From Stentor roeselii (lineage: Eukaryota; Ciliophora; Heterotrichea; Heterotrichida; Stentoridae), in NCBI GenBank assembly GCA_006503475.1, contig RSEH01000335.1, positions 1-43,906 on the forward strand: a DNA stretch of 43,906 nt. Reading direction: 5' to 3'. Made by a program: the position numbers and the translations under genes. The notes beneath the pieces are model-generated. The model was given only the letters and a program-made list of their open reading frames with translations. It did not search any database and was not told the origin of the DNA. Numbering within the stretch: position 1 is the stretch's first letter; the number at the start of each line of letters is the position of its first letter. Below, piece after piece: positions 17,174-37,539 of the stretch.

Positions 17174-17984
17174 ATGGATAAGAAGACTAAGAATTTTTTG
17201 AATGATTCTGTGATTCGCCCAAATGAAGAAGACAAAGAGCCAAATTATCAGGAAATCTCAAAAGTCTCTAGTGAAATTGTAGAAGAGAAATTCAGTAATG
17301 ATAACAACTTTAGAAAACAAAATTTATTTGATCGTGGTACTCAAACTGAAAAACTTACTGATCATGAAAATTTCTTAATGAAAAATAAATTTTCAATATT
17401 ATTTATCTTCTTCGTTTTTATATTGATTCAATACTTAGCATTTTATTACTTTTCAACCATGCCGAAAAAATTTTGGATAGATTCAGAATTATCTAAAAAT
17501 GATCAAAATCTGTTTGAGGATATCTTCCAGGATAATGAATCATTGAATAATAAGTGTGAATCTATTCAAAATAGTACAATTTCTGAAAATTTGATTGAAA
17601 CAGTTCAAGTCTTAAACGAATTAGACGAAAGAAAATTCCTTTCCCAGGAAGAGTGTTTTAAATTCAATAATATTTCAAATATCACAGAAAAGATCAACTT
17701 TTTAAATAAAACTCTCAGATGGACGCCAATGCACGATGGGCAATATTAATCAAATTTTAGTTTACAAAACTATAAATTTGCAATCTGTCATTACTTTAGA
17801 AGTTAGTTCAAAAGTTTCTATAATGGTACCAAGCCAAAATTTGCACCATTTAATAGTAAAAGATGTGAATAACTATATAAAAATCTTTACTATAAAATTA
17901 TCCAATTATATACATCTTATTGTGGACAAAGAAGCAAAAGACAGGCTTCAAAATCACTTTTCAGAGCTTAATGAGTTTAGTTAA
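17174..17984 (+). pseudogene. Broken copy of the tandem membrane-protein family (paralog A)
   Basis: Two frames belong together. The first (17174-17749) has the family N-terminus: a cytosolic-type tail with RGTQTEKL, one membrane segment (about residues 73-97), a linker, and the SQEECFKFNN and RWTPMHDG blocks, then stops. The second frame (open at 17736, ends 17984) picks up with the family C-terminus (SQNLHHLIVKDV). Relative to paralogs B and C about 310 nt, encoding most of the beta-propeller-like middle, are missing, and the frame changes at the junction. There is no GT..AG 15-nt intron at the break. The first half alone could still give a membrane protein lacking its outer domain. Confidence 0.75.
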
Positions 17985-18459
17985 AAAAATAAGTAGTTTA
18001 TTAATTTCTTGATCATCTTAATTGTTTTACTATGCATACACTCTGTTGAAAGGTATTTTCTACTAATGTAATAATTAATTTTTCTTTTGTGAATGGTAGA
18101 AAAATAATGATTCAGAAGATAAAGCATGCAACAATTTGAAGAATGATTTTTTTTCATAAATAGCAGATGAAAATGATTGAATGATATTATAAAATTTGTC
18201 TTTGTAGCCTATCTATATTCAAAGATTACTTGACAAATATAATTTACAACCTGGGAAATATATTCACATAATATTCCTTTGTATAATTAAGAACTTAATA
18301 TTTGGATTTAAATATCAAACAAGAATTATTTAATGAGTCTCAAACAAGAATTATTCAATGAGTTTACAAAAAAACTTCAAATTCTAAGAACTGCATGATT
18401 TAGTTAAATGCTATTTAATATTTTTATTATAATAGGGGGCCTAAATATAGACATTATAA
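17985..18459. other. AT-rich intergenic region
   Basis: 475 bp, strongly AT-rich, between paralogs A and B. It holds a 25-bp tandem duplication at 18316-18365 and otherwise nothing recognisable. Confidence 0.4.
18316..18365 (+). repeat. Tandem duplication, 2 x 25 bp
   Basis: Unit CAAACAAGAATTATTTAATG plus AGTCT at 18316-18340, repeated at 18341-18365 with two substitutions. It lies about 95 bp before the start of paralog B. Confidence 0.9.
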
Positions 18460-19842
18460 ATGAAAGAACACAAAAACTTTAAGTCTAATTGTACAGCATC
18501 AACTAGAACTGAAGAAGCCTATGAAAATAAAATATCTAAAACTTCATCAGAAGTCATTGGATCGAAAAAAATGAAAGTGAACAATGATGAAAATTCTAAT
18601 TCAAAATCAATAAATAATTATTCAGATCAGACAACAAATACAGAAGAACTCTACTTCAATGAAGCCAATATTTTTAAAAGGAATAAGATTTTAATACTTT
18701 ACTTACTTTCATTTTTGATTTTCATTCAGTTTGCTGTTATATATTATTTAGTAGAACTTAAAGAGGATCGTAATGTTTTATTTAACATTCAAAGTCATGA
18801 ATGCAGTATTCAAGAAATTTCCTCAGATATAAATGAAGATTTAACTGAATTAAACAACAATTTAATCGAAATCAATAAAAATTTAACAAAAATAAACAAT
18901 AATTTGATTGAAGTCAACCAAAATTTGAAATATGAAAACCAAAATCTAACTCTATTAATCAGAAACTCTACAACCCACATCAAAAATTTAACTGAAAATA
19001 TAAGAATATTAATGCAAAATAATCAAAATCATACAGATATCAACAAAAATTTAACAGAAACGAATAAAATATTGGAGTCTATCAATAAAAATTTGACTCA
19101 AATAAACAAAAATTTAACCGAAACCAACAAAATCAAAGAAAATGAATTATCAGCATTCATGCCTATTAAAAAATTTTCCGATTTTAAGTACTTTTCTCAA
19201 GAAGAATGTATAAAGTTTAATGGATTTTACTATTTTTCAACGAAAATAGAATATTTAATAAAAACAATCGGTTGGATTCCCATGCACAATGGAAAAAAAT
19301 TACAGCTAAAAGATATTTTCGCCTATAATAATTGCGAATACTTTATTGGATACACAGATTCGAACTTTTTCAAATTTACTCTATTTAAGGACTATTCAAA
19401 TTCTTTAGACTTTTTCGATATCGGTAAAATTGTTTTTTCTCCAAACAATGAATTTGTAGCTATCTCTGAAGGTAAATTTCAATTCTCAATAATTAAATTA
19501 AAAAATTTTGAAAAGGTTACTCTTGATAGTACAATTTTCGGGTCTCAATCTTTAGTTGTCTTTTCACCAGATTCATCATATCTTTTTTACACAAAAATAA
19601 ATTATAATACAATAAACGCTTATTCAACCACTGATTTTAAATTAGTTAAGAAATTTGATCTTCAAGGAAAAAGTCCAGTCCGAATAACTTCCAGTCAAAA
19701 TTTATATCATTTAATCGTGAAGGATGAGGAGCAGCAAATAAAAATCTTTTCATTGCGAAGTCAATACTATTTATATCTGTGTACAGAAAAAGAAATCAGA
19801 GAGAAACTTCAAGATGAGTTTCCAGAACTGAGTGGTTTTTAG
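18460..19842 (+). CDS. Single-pass membrane protein with sequon-rich stalk (paralog B)
   Basis: 460 residues, family not recognised. In order: a polar N-terminal tail (1-72) containing a diverged TNTEE where the relatives have TQT; one hydrophobic segment (about 75-95, ILILYLLSFLIFIQFAVIYY); a stalk (about 121-227) made of a short repeat close to INKNLTETNK, carrying eight N-x-S/T sequons; then SQEECIKFN, GWIPMHNGK, NCEYFIGY, and two WD-like strands (VFSPNNEFVAI, VFSPDSSYLFYT) ending with LYHLIVKDE. With the tail inside, the stalk and head would be outside or luminal and could be N-glycosylated. The head resembles part of a beta propeller. Two Cys conserved between paralogs may pair. Confidence 0.75.
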   Translation: MKEHKNFKSNCTASTRTEEAYENKISKTSSEVIGSKKMKVNNDENSNSKSINNYSDQTTNTEELYFNEANIFKRNKILILYLLSFLIFIQFAVIYYLVELKEDRNVLFNIQSHECSIQEISSDINEDLTELNNNLIEINKNLTKINNNLIEVNQNLKYENQNLTLLIRNSTTHIKNLTENIRILMQNNQNHTDINKNLTETNKILESINKNLTQINKNLTETNKIKENELSAFMPIKKFSDFKYFSQEECIKFNGFYYFSTKIEYLIKTIGWIPMHNGKKLQLKDIFAYNNCEYFIGYTDSNFFKFTLFKDYSNSLDFFDIGKIVFSPNNEFVAISEGKFQFSIIKLKNFEKVTLDSTIFGSQSLVVFSPDSSYLFYTKINYNTINAYSTTDFKLVKKFDLQGKSPVRITSSQNLYHLIVKDEEQQIKIFSLRSQYYLYLCTEKEIREKLQDEFPELSGF

Positions 19843-21125
19843 TTATAATTAAGGTTTTTAGATATAATTTTTTGTAAAATATCAAGAATTTTGTGGATTA
19901 TCTGAGGAAAGATTAATTTATATCATTTTATATCGAAATGATTTATTCCTTGATTAAATTATAAATTATTTTTCAATAGTCAATTTTGGAATAAATTAAA
20001 GTTTCTATCATAACATTTTATGCTTGATATGCTATTTTGGAGGTTACTCAAACTTTTGATGGCAATTTTAAAGGGTATCTTTGATACTTGAAATAGTAAA
20101 ATTATATTTGTTTTTATATATATCTGTATTTATATCCTTATGCATAGTCTGAAGTTTAATTAATTTAACAATATGATAAAAGTATTACAAAACTCAACTT
20201 CTCACATTTTAGGTTGCTAAAAATTCAGTTGAATAAATTGTTGTTTTAAAAACTATACCAACTGTATTTAAAATTCAATAAACTATCAAAAAGCATCAAA
20301 GTCTCCTTTATTTTCAAATAAAGAACAAGATAGAATGCAAAGTATCTGAAAAATTAAACAGCCAAAATAATTAATAAAAAAGTTTGAAAACTTTAACTTG
20401 TGAACCTAATTCAAAAAATTCATAACTATCTAATGATTTTTTTACAGCAGTAATTTAATATAAAAAAATAATCTTAATGAAGAATAAGATTTGAAATATT
20501 CAACATAATCTCTTCAGCACAACTTAATGTAAGGCTAGAATAGAAAAGACAAATAAATTTAGATATGCCAAGGGTCATAAAATTGAAAAAAAACATAACC
20601 ATATGAGAATTAGTTTAAAATTTAAATCGAGAAGAAAGATTCAAAATGAAGCTGAGATCTAAAATCTCCTAATTCTGAAACTTGTTACTAATCAAGAATG
20701 CTCTCGATAGAGAATCATTAACTAAAGAAAGTTAGGAATTAGAAAAAAATTATCAAAACTTTTAATATTGGAGTTCAAACTCTAGCAAAATAATTCATAA
20801 GCATTTTAAATAATATTAAATTATCAGATAATGTATCAGGAATTATATGTTTATTAACCAATAATTTTCAAAAATTTAGAATAATTAATTTCTAATTTTT
20901 ACTAACAACCTTCAAAAAGTCTAAATATGACAACTTCCATTATAAATTATACTTTTTAGCCTATAAGTTCACTACATAATCTGAAAAATTATTCAAAATC
21001 AAAAGTTTTAAGTAATCTTTGAATTAATTATATTAATACAATAAATATCGACTGGACTTATTCATTATTCTTTTATTATCCATCTAGATAATTCATCATT
21101 CCTAAATAAATTCCCTTAGAATAAA
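19843..21125. other. Long AT-rich intergenic region
   Basis: 1283 bp with frequent stops in all frames read and very low GC. No family motif (TQT, EEC, HLIVK) is seen, so I find no support for a fourth paralog. One plus-strand frame near 20290-20850 reads protein-like between stops, but stop density is what random AT-rich DNA would give. Confidence 0.5.
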
Positions 21126-22328
21126 ATGAATAGAAATTTCGACATGAAGAAGTCTAATGATTATATGATCAAATCAACTGAAGAAGACAAGGAAGCCTTC
21201 AATCTAGACCTCAACTACGAGCCTAAAAGTTTAAAGTCGTCTAAAATCTTCAACGAAAACTTCGAAAACACCAAAAATGACTATTTCAATCACAAACATT
21301 CTCAAACAGAAAACAATATTTTGAACTTTGCTGATGAAGGAACTCAAACAGATGAAATCATAAACAATGATCTAATAGTCCTTAAAAACGACTACATCAG
21401 ACGCACAAAAGCTTTAGTTATCATTTTCTTGACTATTCTCTGCATCCTGATCTACTTATTCCCAGGAGATCCCATCAAACTTACTAAAAACTCGCAGGAT
21501 CTTCAAATCTTTTCAAACCTTTCAGATTGCGAAGTGAAAAAACCTGAAACATTGATAACAGAATGTATCTATTCCCAAAGTCCCATAAATCCTGAAAAAT
21601 CAATTCAACTAAAAGAAAACATTTCATCAACAACAGAAAAACAAAAATTTACAGAAATAAATTATCTTTCAAAAGAAGAATGTGAAAGATTCGAAGAATA
21701 CCCAGATACATTAGAAAAGCTAAATTATTTAGAAACAAAAATCAACTGGAAGCCATCAAATGAAGGAAAAAATTTAACCTTAATCGACATCATTTCCTAT
21801 AAAAACTGTGAATTTTTCATCGGATACTCGAATACACAGATATTAAAATTCACTCTTTACCAGGACTTCAGCAAATCCTTATACTTCTCAAACATCGACA
21901 ACATAATAATCTCACCAAACAAAGAATTCATAGCGCTTTCTGAAAACTTCAGAGGATTTTCCATAATCAGAACAAGTGATTTCAAGTCCTTTACTCTAGA
22001 TTCAAGTCTCAAGCTTTTCGAGTCACGGCCAATGATGGATTTTTCTCCAGACTCTTCTTACCTCTTCTACACCCGAGAAAATCAATTAAAAATCTCAGTC
22101 TTTTCAACCCAGGATGCTAAAAACTACCTAGAACTTGATACTAAAAATGAAAAAACCATTCAAATCAAAGCAACTAAAACCCTTTACCATTTAATAGTAA
22201 AAACCGAAAACATACCTCTAAAGATTTATTCAATTTTCAGTCCAAACTACCTCCACCTAGTTCCAAACGAAGAAACTCTAAAAAAGCTCGAAAATGATTT
22301 CCCTGAACTTTCAGATCTATTCAAATGA
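21126..22328 (+). CDS. Single-pass membrane protein (paralog C)
   Basis: 400 residues, same family as the two preceding genes. The N-terminal tail carries EGTQTDEI, a canonical-looking TQT motif. A hydrophobic segment (about 98-116, ALVIIFLTILCILIYLF) is followed by a short linker without the sequon-rich stalk of paralog B. The conserved head has SKEECERFEE, NWKPSNEGKN, NCEFFIGYS, ISPNKEFIALS, FSPDSSYLFYT and LYHLIVK, ending in a short acidic tail. Function is unknown; topology suggests a cytosolic tail binding a partner and an outer or luminal propeller-like head. Composition is less AT-extreme than in A and B. Stop TGA, convergent with the PDE gene, 19 bp apart. Confidence 0.75.
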   Translation: MNRNFDMKKSNDYMIKSTEEDKEAFNLDLNYEPKSLKSSKIFNENFENTKNDYFNHKHSQTENNILNFADEGTQTDEIINNDLIVLKNDYIRRTKALVIIFLTILCILIYLFPGDPIKLTKNSQDLQIFSNLSDCEVKKPETLITECIYSQSPINPEKSIQLKENISSTTEKQKFTEINYLSKEECERFEEYPDTLEKLNYLETKINWKPSNEGKNLTLIDIISYKNCEFFIGYSNTQILKFTLYQDFSKSLYFSNIDNIIISPNKEFIALSENFRGFSIIRTSDFKSFTLDSSLKLFESRPMMDFSPDSSYLFYTRENQLKISVFSTQDAKNYLELDTKNEKTIQIKATKTLYHLIVKTENIPLKIYSIFSPNYLHLVPNEETLKKLENDFPELSDLFK

Positions 22329-22347: not shown

Positions 22348-24504
22348 TTACTCATTCGATAATAAGTTTTTATAAGATCTGTTCTTTGCTACAATCGTTT
22401 CAGTTCTTTGCTTTAAATTATGTTCTGGAGACTGTTCAACCGAAAGTGTCTGTACCCTTTTCTTGAATACAGAAGTTTCCCACATCCTAACATTTTCCTC
22501 CAGTTGCTCCACACAGCATTTCTTGATATCCTCACTTAAAAAGCAGAGATAAAGCGACTCATAAATCGGCATCACAATATTCTTAATAAATCCAATCTGC
22601 GACTTCGCCAAGTCAGTTTTTTCTCTATCACAGTACATCGACACTGCAAGTCCTAATTTTTTTTCCTGTTCGCCTTGTCTGAAGAACTCTTCACAAACGA
22701 GTTCAGTCCACTTGGAGTGTAAAGCTGCACATTTCGCAGCATGTCCGACATCTGAGGCTTTAGTGATAATCTTAAGGACTTCATTGCGATGTTCAGGTAA
22801 AGTCAAGTTGACTCCAGACATGCTGAGTTTAGACTTGAACTTTCCGATAAGGTCGAAGTGTTTTGCCATGTCAGTTGCGAGGATCATGTCGATGATGAGT
22901 CCTCTGACGACTTGCAGGGTGTCCTTCGGAAGACTTTTGAGTAAGTTTTTATCAGGGTGGTGCATGGCTTCGAAGGTAGTCGCACAGTGCATCATTTCTA
23001 ACACTGAGTAGTCATTGTCTGCATTTTACTTACAAGTTATAGAAAGAGGGTGGCCTGTGTTGATAAGAAAACGATTTGTGACGCCAGGGTGGCCAACGTC
23101 GTGACCCAGCATCGCGATAACCCCTGCGAGGATCTCGTAGTCTTGGATGAAATCGTTGAAAGAGCTTTGATTTACCAGGAACATGAAAGAACACAACACG
23201 TCTGCTGCATGAGCTGAGTTGTGATAAGGGTTTAACTTGTAAAGAGACTCTAAACCTGTGAAGTACTCGCTGTATGAGGAAGGCTCCATCTGGAAGACAG
23301 AGTCAAGGTGGAACTTCTGAATGCAATAACTGCCGATTGTGAAAAGTGGCTTGTTTTTCGTGCAGTCTCGCAAGAAAAACATGTCGAAGTTCCATTCTTT
23401 TCCTACTCTTTTTAAAATTCCTACAAGTTCTTCTATTTGGTAGTTTTTTATCACGTCGATTGTCTTCCGGATCAGGTATTTTGAAGGTTTTTTTGTTAGT
23501 CTTCGAACTGGGTTCTGAAGACAGGTTTCTTCAATGAAGATTTTGTCGTCGTCGTCTAAGTTTTTTTCAAGTCCTTCAATGTCGATGGAGTAGATGCTGC
23601 TTCTTTTTCCTATCAAGTTCATCACTTTTGTTAAGTTTTCAAAGATTTTTTCAGCGTAGATCATTTTTCGGTCTTTTGACTGAGTTATCAGAGGGATGAG
23701 CTTTATGGAGTCTTTTAAGGTTGAGGCGATTTCTTCGATGTCGGTTCTGGGAGTTGGGTCTTCGAGTTTCAGCTCTGGGTTTAGAAAGTTGTGAAGAGAA
23801 ATGAATTTTTCACGGATTAGAAACTCTTGGTGGTAAAAATCGTTGCTTTCGATTAGAGTCACAGTTATGAGAAATAGAAATTCGATTACTGCACTTTGGA
23901 TACTTTCTTCGGATATTAGGGTTATTATCAGGTGGATTACGCTTATCAGCAGGTTGATTATTAGGTACTTGCTGAAATTGTTAAAGATTGTGAACTTTGA
24001 TACGTATAACAATGGAAGAATTCCCAGAACTGTTGAAAAACCGTGCTTTTCGTTGCCTGGGAAGATTTTAGATCTAGTCAAAGGACCGTTTACTGAAATC
24101 GTGACCAGAGTCACCAGGTAGGTACAAATGAGCAAAGTACTTTTAAACTTCGACTTTCTATCACGGATTAAATAATTGTAAAGAATTAGCGAAGAAAAAG
24201 CTGTTAAAGACGTGAGTAAAACGCATTGGAACAGAACCATTTCCAAAGATGAGTGATCTTCTAAATGGGTTGAGATATATGAAGAGTCGTATAGAAGGAC
24301 TATAATGAAGTAGATCATCATAAATCTTTTACACTTTTCTCTGTGGTTTATTCCTAAAGTGTGTGCAACATCTGAAAGAACAACATTTTGATAGTCTTTT
24401 TCGTATTTCTGGTTGTTGAATTTTAGACTGAATCTTGACTTCGAAGGTGCATCGTTCTGCCTTTCATTTGATGTAGGATGTATTGAACTGTCGGAAACTT
24501 TCAT
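22348..24504 (-). CDS. Six-TM 3',5'-cyclic-nucleotide phosphodiesterase
   Basis: 713 residues after removal of one 15-nt intron (23019-23033). The N-terminal ~240 residues contain about six hydrophobic segments. A helical linker follows (about 240-400), then the class I PDE catalytic domain: YHNSAHAADV (HNxxHA, from 427), MLGHDVGHPG (metal H468 D469), across the splice NDYSVLEMMHCATTFE, the DVGHAAK metal/His block, EEFFRQGEQE, and the invariant glutamine in SQIGFIKNIV. All metal ligands appear intact. It hydrolyses cAMP and/or cGMP at a membrane; specificity is not evident. The PKG gene two genes away is a candidate partner pathway. AATAATT directly abuts the ATG. Confidence 0.93.
23019..23033 (-). 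other. 15-nt intron in the PDE gene
   Basis: Reads GTAAGTAAAATGCAG on the minus strand. It is phase 1, with the split codon giving Tyr in ..SIT-Y-NDYS... Unspliced it creates an in-frame TAA inside the catalytic domain. Confidence 0.95.
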
Positions 24505-36139: not shown

Positions 36140-36955
36140 TTATAGATTCAGTGAAATTGTTAGAAGGTCTTTCACGTCGGCTAGGAATGATAGTCCTCGG
36201 CCTTCAGTCGCTTTTTGCATGAAGAAGTCGGTCAGGTTGTCGAGCTTGAAATTATTTTGACGTTCTGCGAAATCGATCGCTTTTTTTATGTTTTCTCTGT
36301 CGAGAAGAGAACCTTTTTCGAAAGCGATTAATGAGAAAAAAACTGTTTAAGGCTTACAGAGGAGTTTTTGTTTTTGGATGTTTCGATTTTCGAGTTTTTT
36401 TATCTTTCGGGAAGCGAAAAATTTCCACCTGTAACCCATGTGTAGCTCTTCTATGCACTTCAAAAAGTCTTCACTGGTCATCCAGAGCTTGTTTTTAACT
36501 GGTTCTAAGATACATTGAAACAATTTCTGGTCCGACATGTAACAGTCGAGTAAGAACTGCTTCAACAGAACTGTGTGAATTTCTAGCCTGTTACTGTTTC
36601 TAACCCAGGCAGTTTCTTGATAAAAACTGCCCAGTTGCTGAAAAACGTTCGTCAAAGTTAAGACCTGGTCGAGTGAATAAGGACTTGAGTTATTTCTCGG
36701 GCTTGCTTTTAGTGAAACTCTTCTGTAGCCTTCAACAGGTGAGTACTGTGAAATATGCTTAGTCGTCTGTGCATGAAGAAGTTTTAATGAGCTGCTGCTC
36801 GTCAATTTGCGAGTCGTTTTCCTTCTTCCAGCTTGTCTAGGCTGAAAAGACCTGAGTTTTTTAATGATTTCAAAAAGTACTGTAGCCAGTTCATGATCAT
36901 TGAGCAAAGCCAGTTTAGGTAAGTTTAAGTTTCTTGAACTTAGAGTTTTTATCAT
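36140..36955 (-). CDS. Two-exon protein, unknown function
   Basis: 266 residues after removing the 15-nt intron at 36343-36357. The frame is also open upstream to a TTG, but the ATG at 36955 (MIKTLSSRN) is the first true start. The N-terminal ~90 residues are basic; the rest is helical (SLDQVLTLTNVFQQLGSFYQ, VLLKQFLLDCYMSDQKLFQC). Exon 2 continues FFFSLIAFEKGSLLDRENIK and AIDFAERQNNFKLDNL before a TAA. There is some EF-hand-like helix spacing but no calcium loop. Not recognised. Its first codons and promoter are part of the 70-bp repeat array shared with ANAPC11. The intron was judged from the clean restoration of frame and coding composition beyond it. Confidence 0.72.
36343..36357 (-). other. 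15-nt intron in the two-exon unknown gene
   Basis: Reads GTAAGCCTTAAACAG on the minus strand, phase 1. Left in, the frame ends at TAA within it; removed, about 66 further codons follow. Confidence 0.85.
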
Positions 36956-37278
36956 TAGATTTATATCTTTTAAAGAAATGTTATAAATGAAAGTCAAATT
37001 TTTGAACTTAGAGATATCATCATGAGCTTAATATCTTTAAAAGAAAAATGTTATAAATGAAAGTAAAAATTCTTGTACTTAGAGTTTTTATCATCAGATT
37101 TATATGTTTCAAAGAAAAATGTTATAAAGGAAAGTAAAAATTCTTGAACTTAGTGTTTTAATCATCGAATTTATATCTTATAAACCAAAATGTTGAAAAT
37201 GAAAGTCAAGTTTCTTGAACTTTTTTATCATCGAATTTATATCTTTAAACAAAAATGTTATAAATGAAAGTAAAAATC
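36931..37278. repeat. Five tandem ~70-bp copies of a divergent promoter/start cassette
   Basis: Units start at 36931, 37001, 37071, 37141 and 37212. Each contains, on the minus strand, an ATGAT(A/T)A start like that of the unknown gene. About 31 bp away on the plus strand each contains TTATAAATGAAAGT, the start of ANAPC11 (the ATG is lost in unit 3). Only the outermost starts lead into long frames; the inner ones stop within about 10-28 codons. The spacer of each unit holds TTATATCTTT and GTTATAA. Confidence 0.92.
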
Positions 37279-37539
37279 AACAACTGGCTCGGAGTCGCTT
37301 CTTGGGCCTGGGACGTTCCTGACCCACAGTGCGTTATTTGTTTATTGCCTTTCGAATCGCCTTGTCCCAACTGCAAAAACCCTGGAGACGACTGCGCCCC
37401 GGTTGAAAGTGAATGTTCTCATTATTACCATCTTCACTGCATCAGCAGGTGGACGGCCGAAGGCAAAGAAAACTGTCCTTGCTGCAGAAAGCCTTTCAGG
37501 ATCAAGACTGTCAGCACTTTACAAAGAGTTAATAAATAA
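37264..37539 (+). CDS. ANAPC11: APC11, RING-H2 subunit of the anaphase-promoting complex
   Basis: 91 residues. It opens MKVKINNWLGVASWAW, matching MKVKI..W.GVA.W.W of ANAPC11, then the RING-H2 finger: C23, C26, C34, C37, C44 (GDDC), C51, H53, H56, C59, C71 and C74, with SRW after the finger helix. APC11 is the catalytic RING of the APC/C, recruiting E2 enzymes to ubiquitinate cyclins and securin. Length and all zinc ligands are normal. The promoter lies in the five-copy array upstream. UNG starts 50 bp downstream on the same strand. Confidence 0.96.
   Translation: MKVKINNWLGVASWAWDVPDPQCVICLLPFESPCPNCKNPGDDCAPVESECSHYYHLHCISRWTAEGKENCPCCRKPFRIKTVSTLQRVNK

Follow-up and report, generated by a model that had tools for sequence, protein, structure and literature searches.

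A diverged tandem array bearing two start codons fills the gap between ANAPC11 and a divergent gene in Stentor roeselii

The window, by which is meant the whole stretch of 43,906 nt analyzed here, contains two genes arranged head to head, with a tandem array between their start codons. The features of the locus are:

36140..36955, minus strand: divergent gene, function unassigned, predicted at 266 aa and interrupted by a single 15-nt intron; left unspliced, the frame is 202 aa (36347-36955)
36343..36357, minus strand: candidate 15-nt intron GTAAGCCTTAAACAG of the divergent gene; once it is removed, the frame of 202 codons becomes one of 266
36931..37277, no strand assigned: tandem array of five units of 66-71 bp
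37264..37539, plus strand: ANAPC11, 91 aa, the RING-H2 subunit of the anaphase-promoting complex (PF12861, 64.8 bits against a cut-off of 25)

The product of the plus-strand gene carries an ANAPC11-type RING-H2 domain, its best match among solved structures being APC11 (E 2.4e-21, residues 1-81). The N-terminus, MKVKI, aligns with residue 1 of the solved APC11 chain 5g04_B, which we take to be the human protein. Since the alignment begins at residue 1, the start codon in the last unit of the array is the conserved one and has genuinely been copied by the repeat. Searches with ANAPC11 for relatives in collections of prokaryote and viral contigs gave 40 and 2 pattern matches, respectively, none of which was confirmed; collections without eukaryotes say little on this matter. 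The divergent gene probably extends beyond its 202-aa frame. Of the four relatives examined, two align with the part that the extension to 266 aa adds, and the frames of the other two stop there. A Pfam search with the 202-aa frame found no match at E <= 0.1. The gene belongs to a family with nine further matches in its own genome at E <= 10, eight of them below 1e-3. Its protein possesses five to nine residues ahead of the point at which the four relatives begin in the alignment. This is approximately the length contributed by the repeat, from which it follows that the present start of the gene may itself be derived from the repeat, in a family too diverged for certainty.

Two genes with 15-nt introns were found, and removal of the intron restores a long frame in both. 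The stop codons of the ORFs of at least 120 aa (n = 32) are TAA in 17, TAG in 8, and TGA in 7. The use of all three stops together with 15-nt introns is consistent with Stentor, for which an excerpt of PMC9505925 gives the standard genetic code and introns of 15-16 nt. On the minus strand at 22348-24504 of the window, two ORFs fuse to a 713-codon frame when a GT..AG stretch of 15 nt is cut out at 23033. Three adjacent plus-strand ORFs (191, 460, and 400 aa) at 17174-22328 have similar stretches by eye and apparently represent a local gene family.

Tandem Repeats Finder reports the array with a period of 71, 5.0 copies, 81% matches, and a score of 428, the highest of any array in the window. 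With the unit cuts placed at 36931, 36999, 37070, 37141, and 37212, the units measure 68, 71, 71, 71, and 66 bp, and their contents are:

36931..36998: unit 1, true start of the divergent gene at 36955 (minus strand); inner ANAPC11-type start at 36987 (12 codons, ATAA-ATG)
36999..37069: unit 2, inner minus-strand starts at 37020 and 37023 (8 and 9 codons); inner ANAPC11-type start at 37057 (26 codons, ATAA-ATG)
37070..37140: unit 3, inner minus-strand start at 37094 (24 codons); ANAPC11-type start lost, with AGG instead
37141..37211: unit 4, inner minus-strand start at 37165 (18 codons); inner ANAPC11-type start at 37199 (22 codons)
37212..37277: unit 5, inner minus-strand start at 37231 (17 codons); true ANAPC11 start at 37264

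Read along the plus strand, each unit presents roughly the first eight codons of the minus-strand gene as their reverse complement, followed by a spacer and then by the opening codons of ANAPC11. The earlier note on this DNA had described a tandem multiplication of the divergent gap in which the opening codons of either gene were included, a description that is borne out; the best score among 500 first-order resamples of the array was 108, and an origin of the array by chance is very unlikely. The spacer that separates the start codons, put at about 31 bp in the earlier note, measures 31, 36, 33, 33, and 32 bp in units 1 to 5. That both starts occur in all five units of about 70 bp is true of the minus-strand gene (5/5) but not of ANAPC11 (4/5), as a listing of all ATGs of 36925-37285 reveals. 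The same listing upholds the claim that only the outermost starts lead into full genes. The inner frames are short, as had been said, and close after 8-26 codons.

Several smaller features complete the picture. The ANAPC11-type start in unit 4 has an alternative in-frame ATG at 37190, giving 25 codons. An extra plus-strand ATG lies nine bases upstream of the plus start in each unit; in units 1, 2, 3, and 5 the resulting frame is two codons long (ATG-TTA-TAA), and the one in unit 4 leads in frame to the inner start. Further plus-strand ATGs are located at 37022 and 37104. On the minus strand, TATAAAT stands shortly before the ATG in four of the five units and is lost in unit 2, and unit 5 has a 5-bp deletion within the part that holds the minus-strand codons. 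The possibility that inner units extend either protein in frame at its N-terminus was rejected, there being no inner frame that reaches either gene. Splicing across the inner units was likewise discarded: the sole GT..AG stretch of 15/16 nt in 36900-37310 (36929, plus strand) joins no frame.

The array occupies the entire gap between the two genes, and any control sequence there must therefore sit in or between units. The true starts, 36955 on the minus and 37264 on the plus strand, are 308 bp apart, so that the pair shows the divergent orientation and short shared gap by which bidirectional promoters are recognized. With similar units of more than 10 bp placed head to tail beyond chance expectation, the array is a minisatellite. 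Its five units are 73-86% identical in pairwise comparison, that is, 14-27% of aligned positions differ with gaps counted. Assemblers are known to have difficulty with tandem repeats (PMC6868369), and the array could be imagined as a single unit multiplied by the assembler. Duplicates made in this manner would be near identical, whereas these units differ to the extent just given and by small gaps, and such an artefact is barely credible; it is possible that further copies were collapsed in assembly. The same divergence makes a recent turnover or change in copy number of the array unlikely. As a rule, copy number changes less readily in diverged arrays than in uniform arrays.

The array most likely arose long ago as a minisatellite-like tandem duplication of the compact spacer of a head-to-head gene pair, with outer copies that serve the genes and inner starts that are relics. 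The ancestor would have been a single unit with two start codons some 31-36 bp apart. Slippage or unequal exchange would then have copied a segment that ended inside the first codons of both genes, and for this reason both starts would have been carried in every copy. Similar short words may have seeded the first duplication: the left edge of the array (AAGTTTAAGT before TTCTTGAAC) resembles the junction of units 4 and 5 (AAGTCAAGT before TTCTTGAAC), as is expected if short shared words played this role. The copies would later have diverged through point changes and small deletions. The outermost ones presumably still serve ANAPC11 and the divergent gene, with transcription starting in or near the outer units, and the inner copies would be inert, their starts being relics with short, closing frames. 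The main physical effect would have been to move the true start codons from about 31 bp to their present distance. Decay in three units supports the relic reading, namely the missing plus start in unit 3, the missing minus-strand TATAAAT in unit 2, and the deletion in the minus-strand codons of unit 5. Against it stand the retention of ATAA-ATG in units 1, 2, and 5 and of the minus-strand ATG in every unit, and some function of the inner starts is conceivable.

Minisatellites occur in promoter and intergenic regions, for instance in yeast promoters (excerpt of PMC3899988), and likewise consist of head-to-tail units of more than 10 bp in non-coding DNA beside gene starts; the units described here differ in holding the opening codons of the genes on either side and in being old and diverged. 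The array also resembles the architecture of compact divergent gene pairs with a bidirectional promoter, the genes being head to head with an ancestral gap of about 31-36 bp, but here the gap has grown to 308 bp by tandem copies and the shared promoter is putative. A third parallel is the bidirectional promoter of hifA and hifB in Haemophilus influenzae, described in the same excerpt (PMC3899988), where a tandem repeat also lies between two divergent genes. That repeat is a dinucleotide, the number of which varies and alters the -10/-35 spacing, whereas the present unit is eukaryotic, measures 71 bp, and carries both start codons, as known from one assembly.

The sequence context of the starts was examined with a set of ORF starts (ORFs of at least 150 aa) from 34 loci of the same genome, including the window; ANAPC11, at 91 aa, is outside this set. 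ATAAAT occurs at -20 to -3 of 50 of 161 starts, against a column-shuffle mean of 20.3 (32/81 and 18/80 in the two halves of the set), and is not enriched at -60 to -21 of the same starts (11 versus 11.0). Most of the signal falls at -4 (37 matches), which is to say that ATAA directly precedes the ATG. This ATAA-ATG context is found at 38 of 163 ORF starts, where 14.5 are expected from column frequencies, compared with 42 of 2,892 non-start ATGs in non-coding sequence. The two totals differ because the ATAAAT counts exclude the divergent minus-strand gene and starts fewer than 60 bases from a locus end. A reading as TATA box was considered and set aside; TATAAA is enriched near the ATG, but the sharper signal is ATAA immediately before it. 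The context may be a mark of translation initiation; alternatively, it may mark where transcription begins, leaders then being very short. Out-of-frame ATGs within 15 nt of starts number 8 in 1,300 positions (6.2 per 1000, against 8.6-13.1 in upstream bins), and this thinning, confined to about 15 nt, weakly hints at short leaders. Were leaders short, the inner starts might be absent from the mRNAs. A literature search over titles and the openings of abstracts retrieved no description there of this array or of start contexts in Stentor.

The ANAPC11-type start has the exact ATAA-ATG context in units 1, 2, and 5. Inner units thus retain some ingredients of a start, and this is the strongest point for viewing the array as a multiplied bidirectional promoter, in which a start-proximal element in each unit would fire both ways from several initiation sites, the inner starts would act as upstream ORFs damping both genes, and unit number would tune dose. 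The idea draws further on the array spanning the whole divergent gap, on the presence of ATAA-ATG on the plus strand of three and of TATAAAT before the minus-strand ATG of four of the five units, on the enrichment of ATAA-ATG at ORF starts, and on the changes in expression caused by promoter repeats in yeast (excerpt of PMC3899988). It is weakened by the age and divergence of the copies, by the decay of elements in units 2, 3, and 4, and by the position of the minus-strand TATAAAT at -10, where ATAAAT is hardly enriched.

Nor do the starts display clear extra conservation. Invariant columns were counted in six rule-set windows around both ATGs and compared with 70 circular shifts. The counts were 31/48 (29.7 expected), 25/36 (22.3), 20/30 (18.6), 14/18 (11.2), 16/24 (14.9), and 16/24 (14.9), and they were matched by 24, 6, 22, 10, 26, and 31 of the 70 shifts, respectively, the second of these being the -9 to +9 window. 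There is at most a weak lean to constraint near the start codons. Selection on the start codons had also been considered on account of a block with 21 of 24 columns invariant; this was dropped, the block having been picked post hoc and being biased for that reason, while the rule-set windows yield at most a weak excess.

The window and 24 stretches taken from other contigs, each 10 kb long, formed a comparison set (283,906 bases) and were subjected to the identical repeat search. At a period of at least 40 and a score of at least 150, eleven rows merged into eight arrays, seven of them in the 240,000 bases outside the window, a frequency of about one per 35 kb; ten resampled versions of the 283,906 bases contained zero arrays of period at least 40. 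The eight arrays (period x copies) are:

L017: 72 x 9.0, between two minus-strand genes
L033, 3486-3879: 66 x 5.9, outside ORFs
L020, 5681-6047: 77 x 4.8, overlapping the stop end of a gene
Window, 36931-37277: 71 x 5.0, divergent gap
L016: 81 x 3.3, within an ORF
L011, 8529-8785: 54 x 4.8, outside ORFs
L013: 88 x 2.0, outside ORFs
L002, 1353-1496: 49 x 2.7, convergent gap

Seven of the eight lie outside ORFs, in gaps of divergent, tandem, and convergent type, L016 alone being inside an ORF, and no array but that of the window occupies a divergent gap. The unit of L002 covers the ends of two convergent genes, namely the stop-codon end of the plus-strand one and the final codons of the minus-strand one, making it the mirror image of the window array; the plus-strand gene, the frame of which opens at the edge of the stretch, was missed by the ORF filter and seen in a separate ORF listing. 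Since arrays recur at this rate, and do so in gaps of tandem and convergent type and within an ORF as well, the copying of short spacers, sometimes including gene ends, is a general habit of this genome and is not bound to promoters. The window array is real and neat, but ordinary for its genome. Comparable arrays at non-promoter sites also speak against the multiplied bidirectional promoter, which on the whole of this evidence is decidedly unlikely. Still more improbable is a promoter multiplier at work today, with several units firing both ways, the inner ATAA-ATG starts serving as decoys, and unit number setting the dose of the APC/C subunit and its partner.

The array might instead matter solely by separating starts once about 31 bp apart, affording each gene some 150 bp of promoter space. 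Among 25 divergent ORF pairs (ORFs of at least 90 aa in 243,906 bases), the median distance is 157 bp and six pairs lie within 25 bp. The present gap of 308 bp exceeds this median, and about 31 bp belongs to the lower part of the distribution, both of which agree with a spacing role. The six pairs that manage with 25 bp or less argue that separation is not generally needed, however, and the other arrays sit in gaps that are not divergent, so that spacing as the sole significance of the array is unlikely. For the old duplication of a compact spacer, which we favor, the frequency of such close divergent ORFs makes an ancestral gap of about 31 bp unremarkable.

The array illustrates one route by which the compact intergenic regions of this genome can grow, in that short spacers are copied along with gene ends, and what remains is intact genes with diverged start or stop codons next to them. 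Copies of this kind are pitfalls for gene prediction. They are also natural experiments on what sequence before an ATG suffices to start a gene, and the ATAA-ATG context gives a point from which initiation in this organism can be tested.

Membership in a dispersed repeat family was considered and rejected, the array DNA having matched only itself in its own genome in a search that leaves out simple repeats and highly frequent words. With up to two mismatches allowed, a 20-base core pattern occurs at 13 places, including the five units of the array itself, against four for the reversed control. The intergenic arrays of L020, L011, and L033 also score at double their period (77/155, 54/107, and 66/133, respectively), which suggests that these three grew by dimers.
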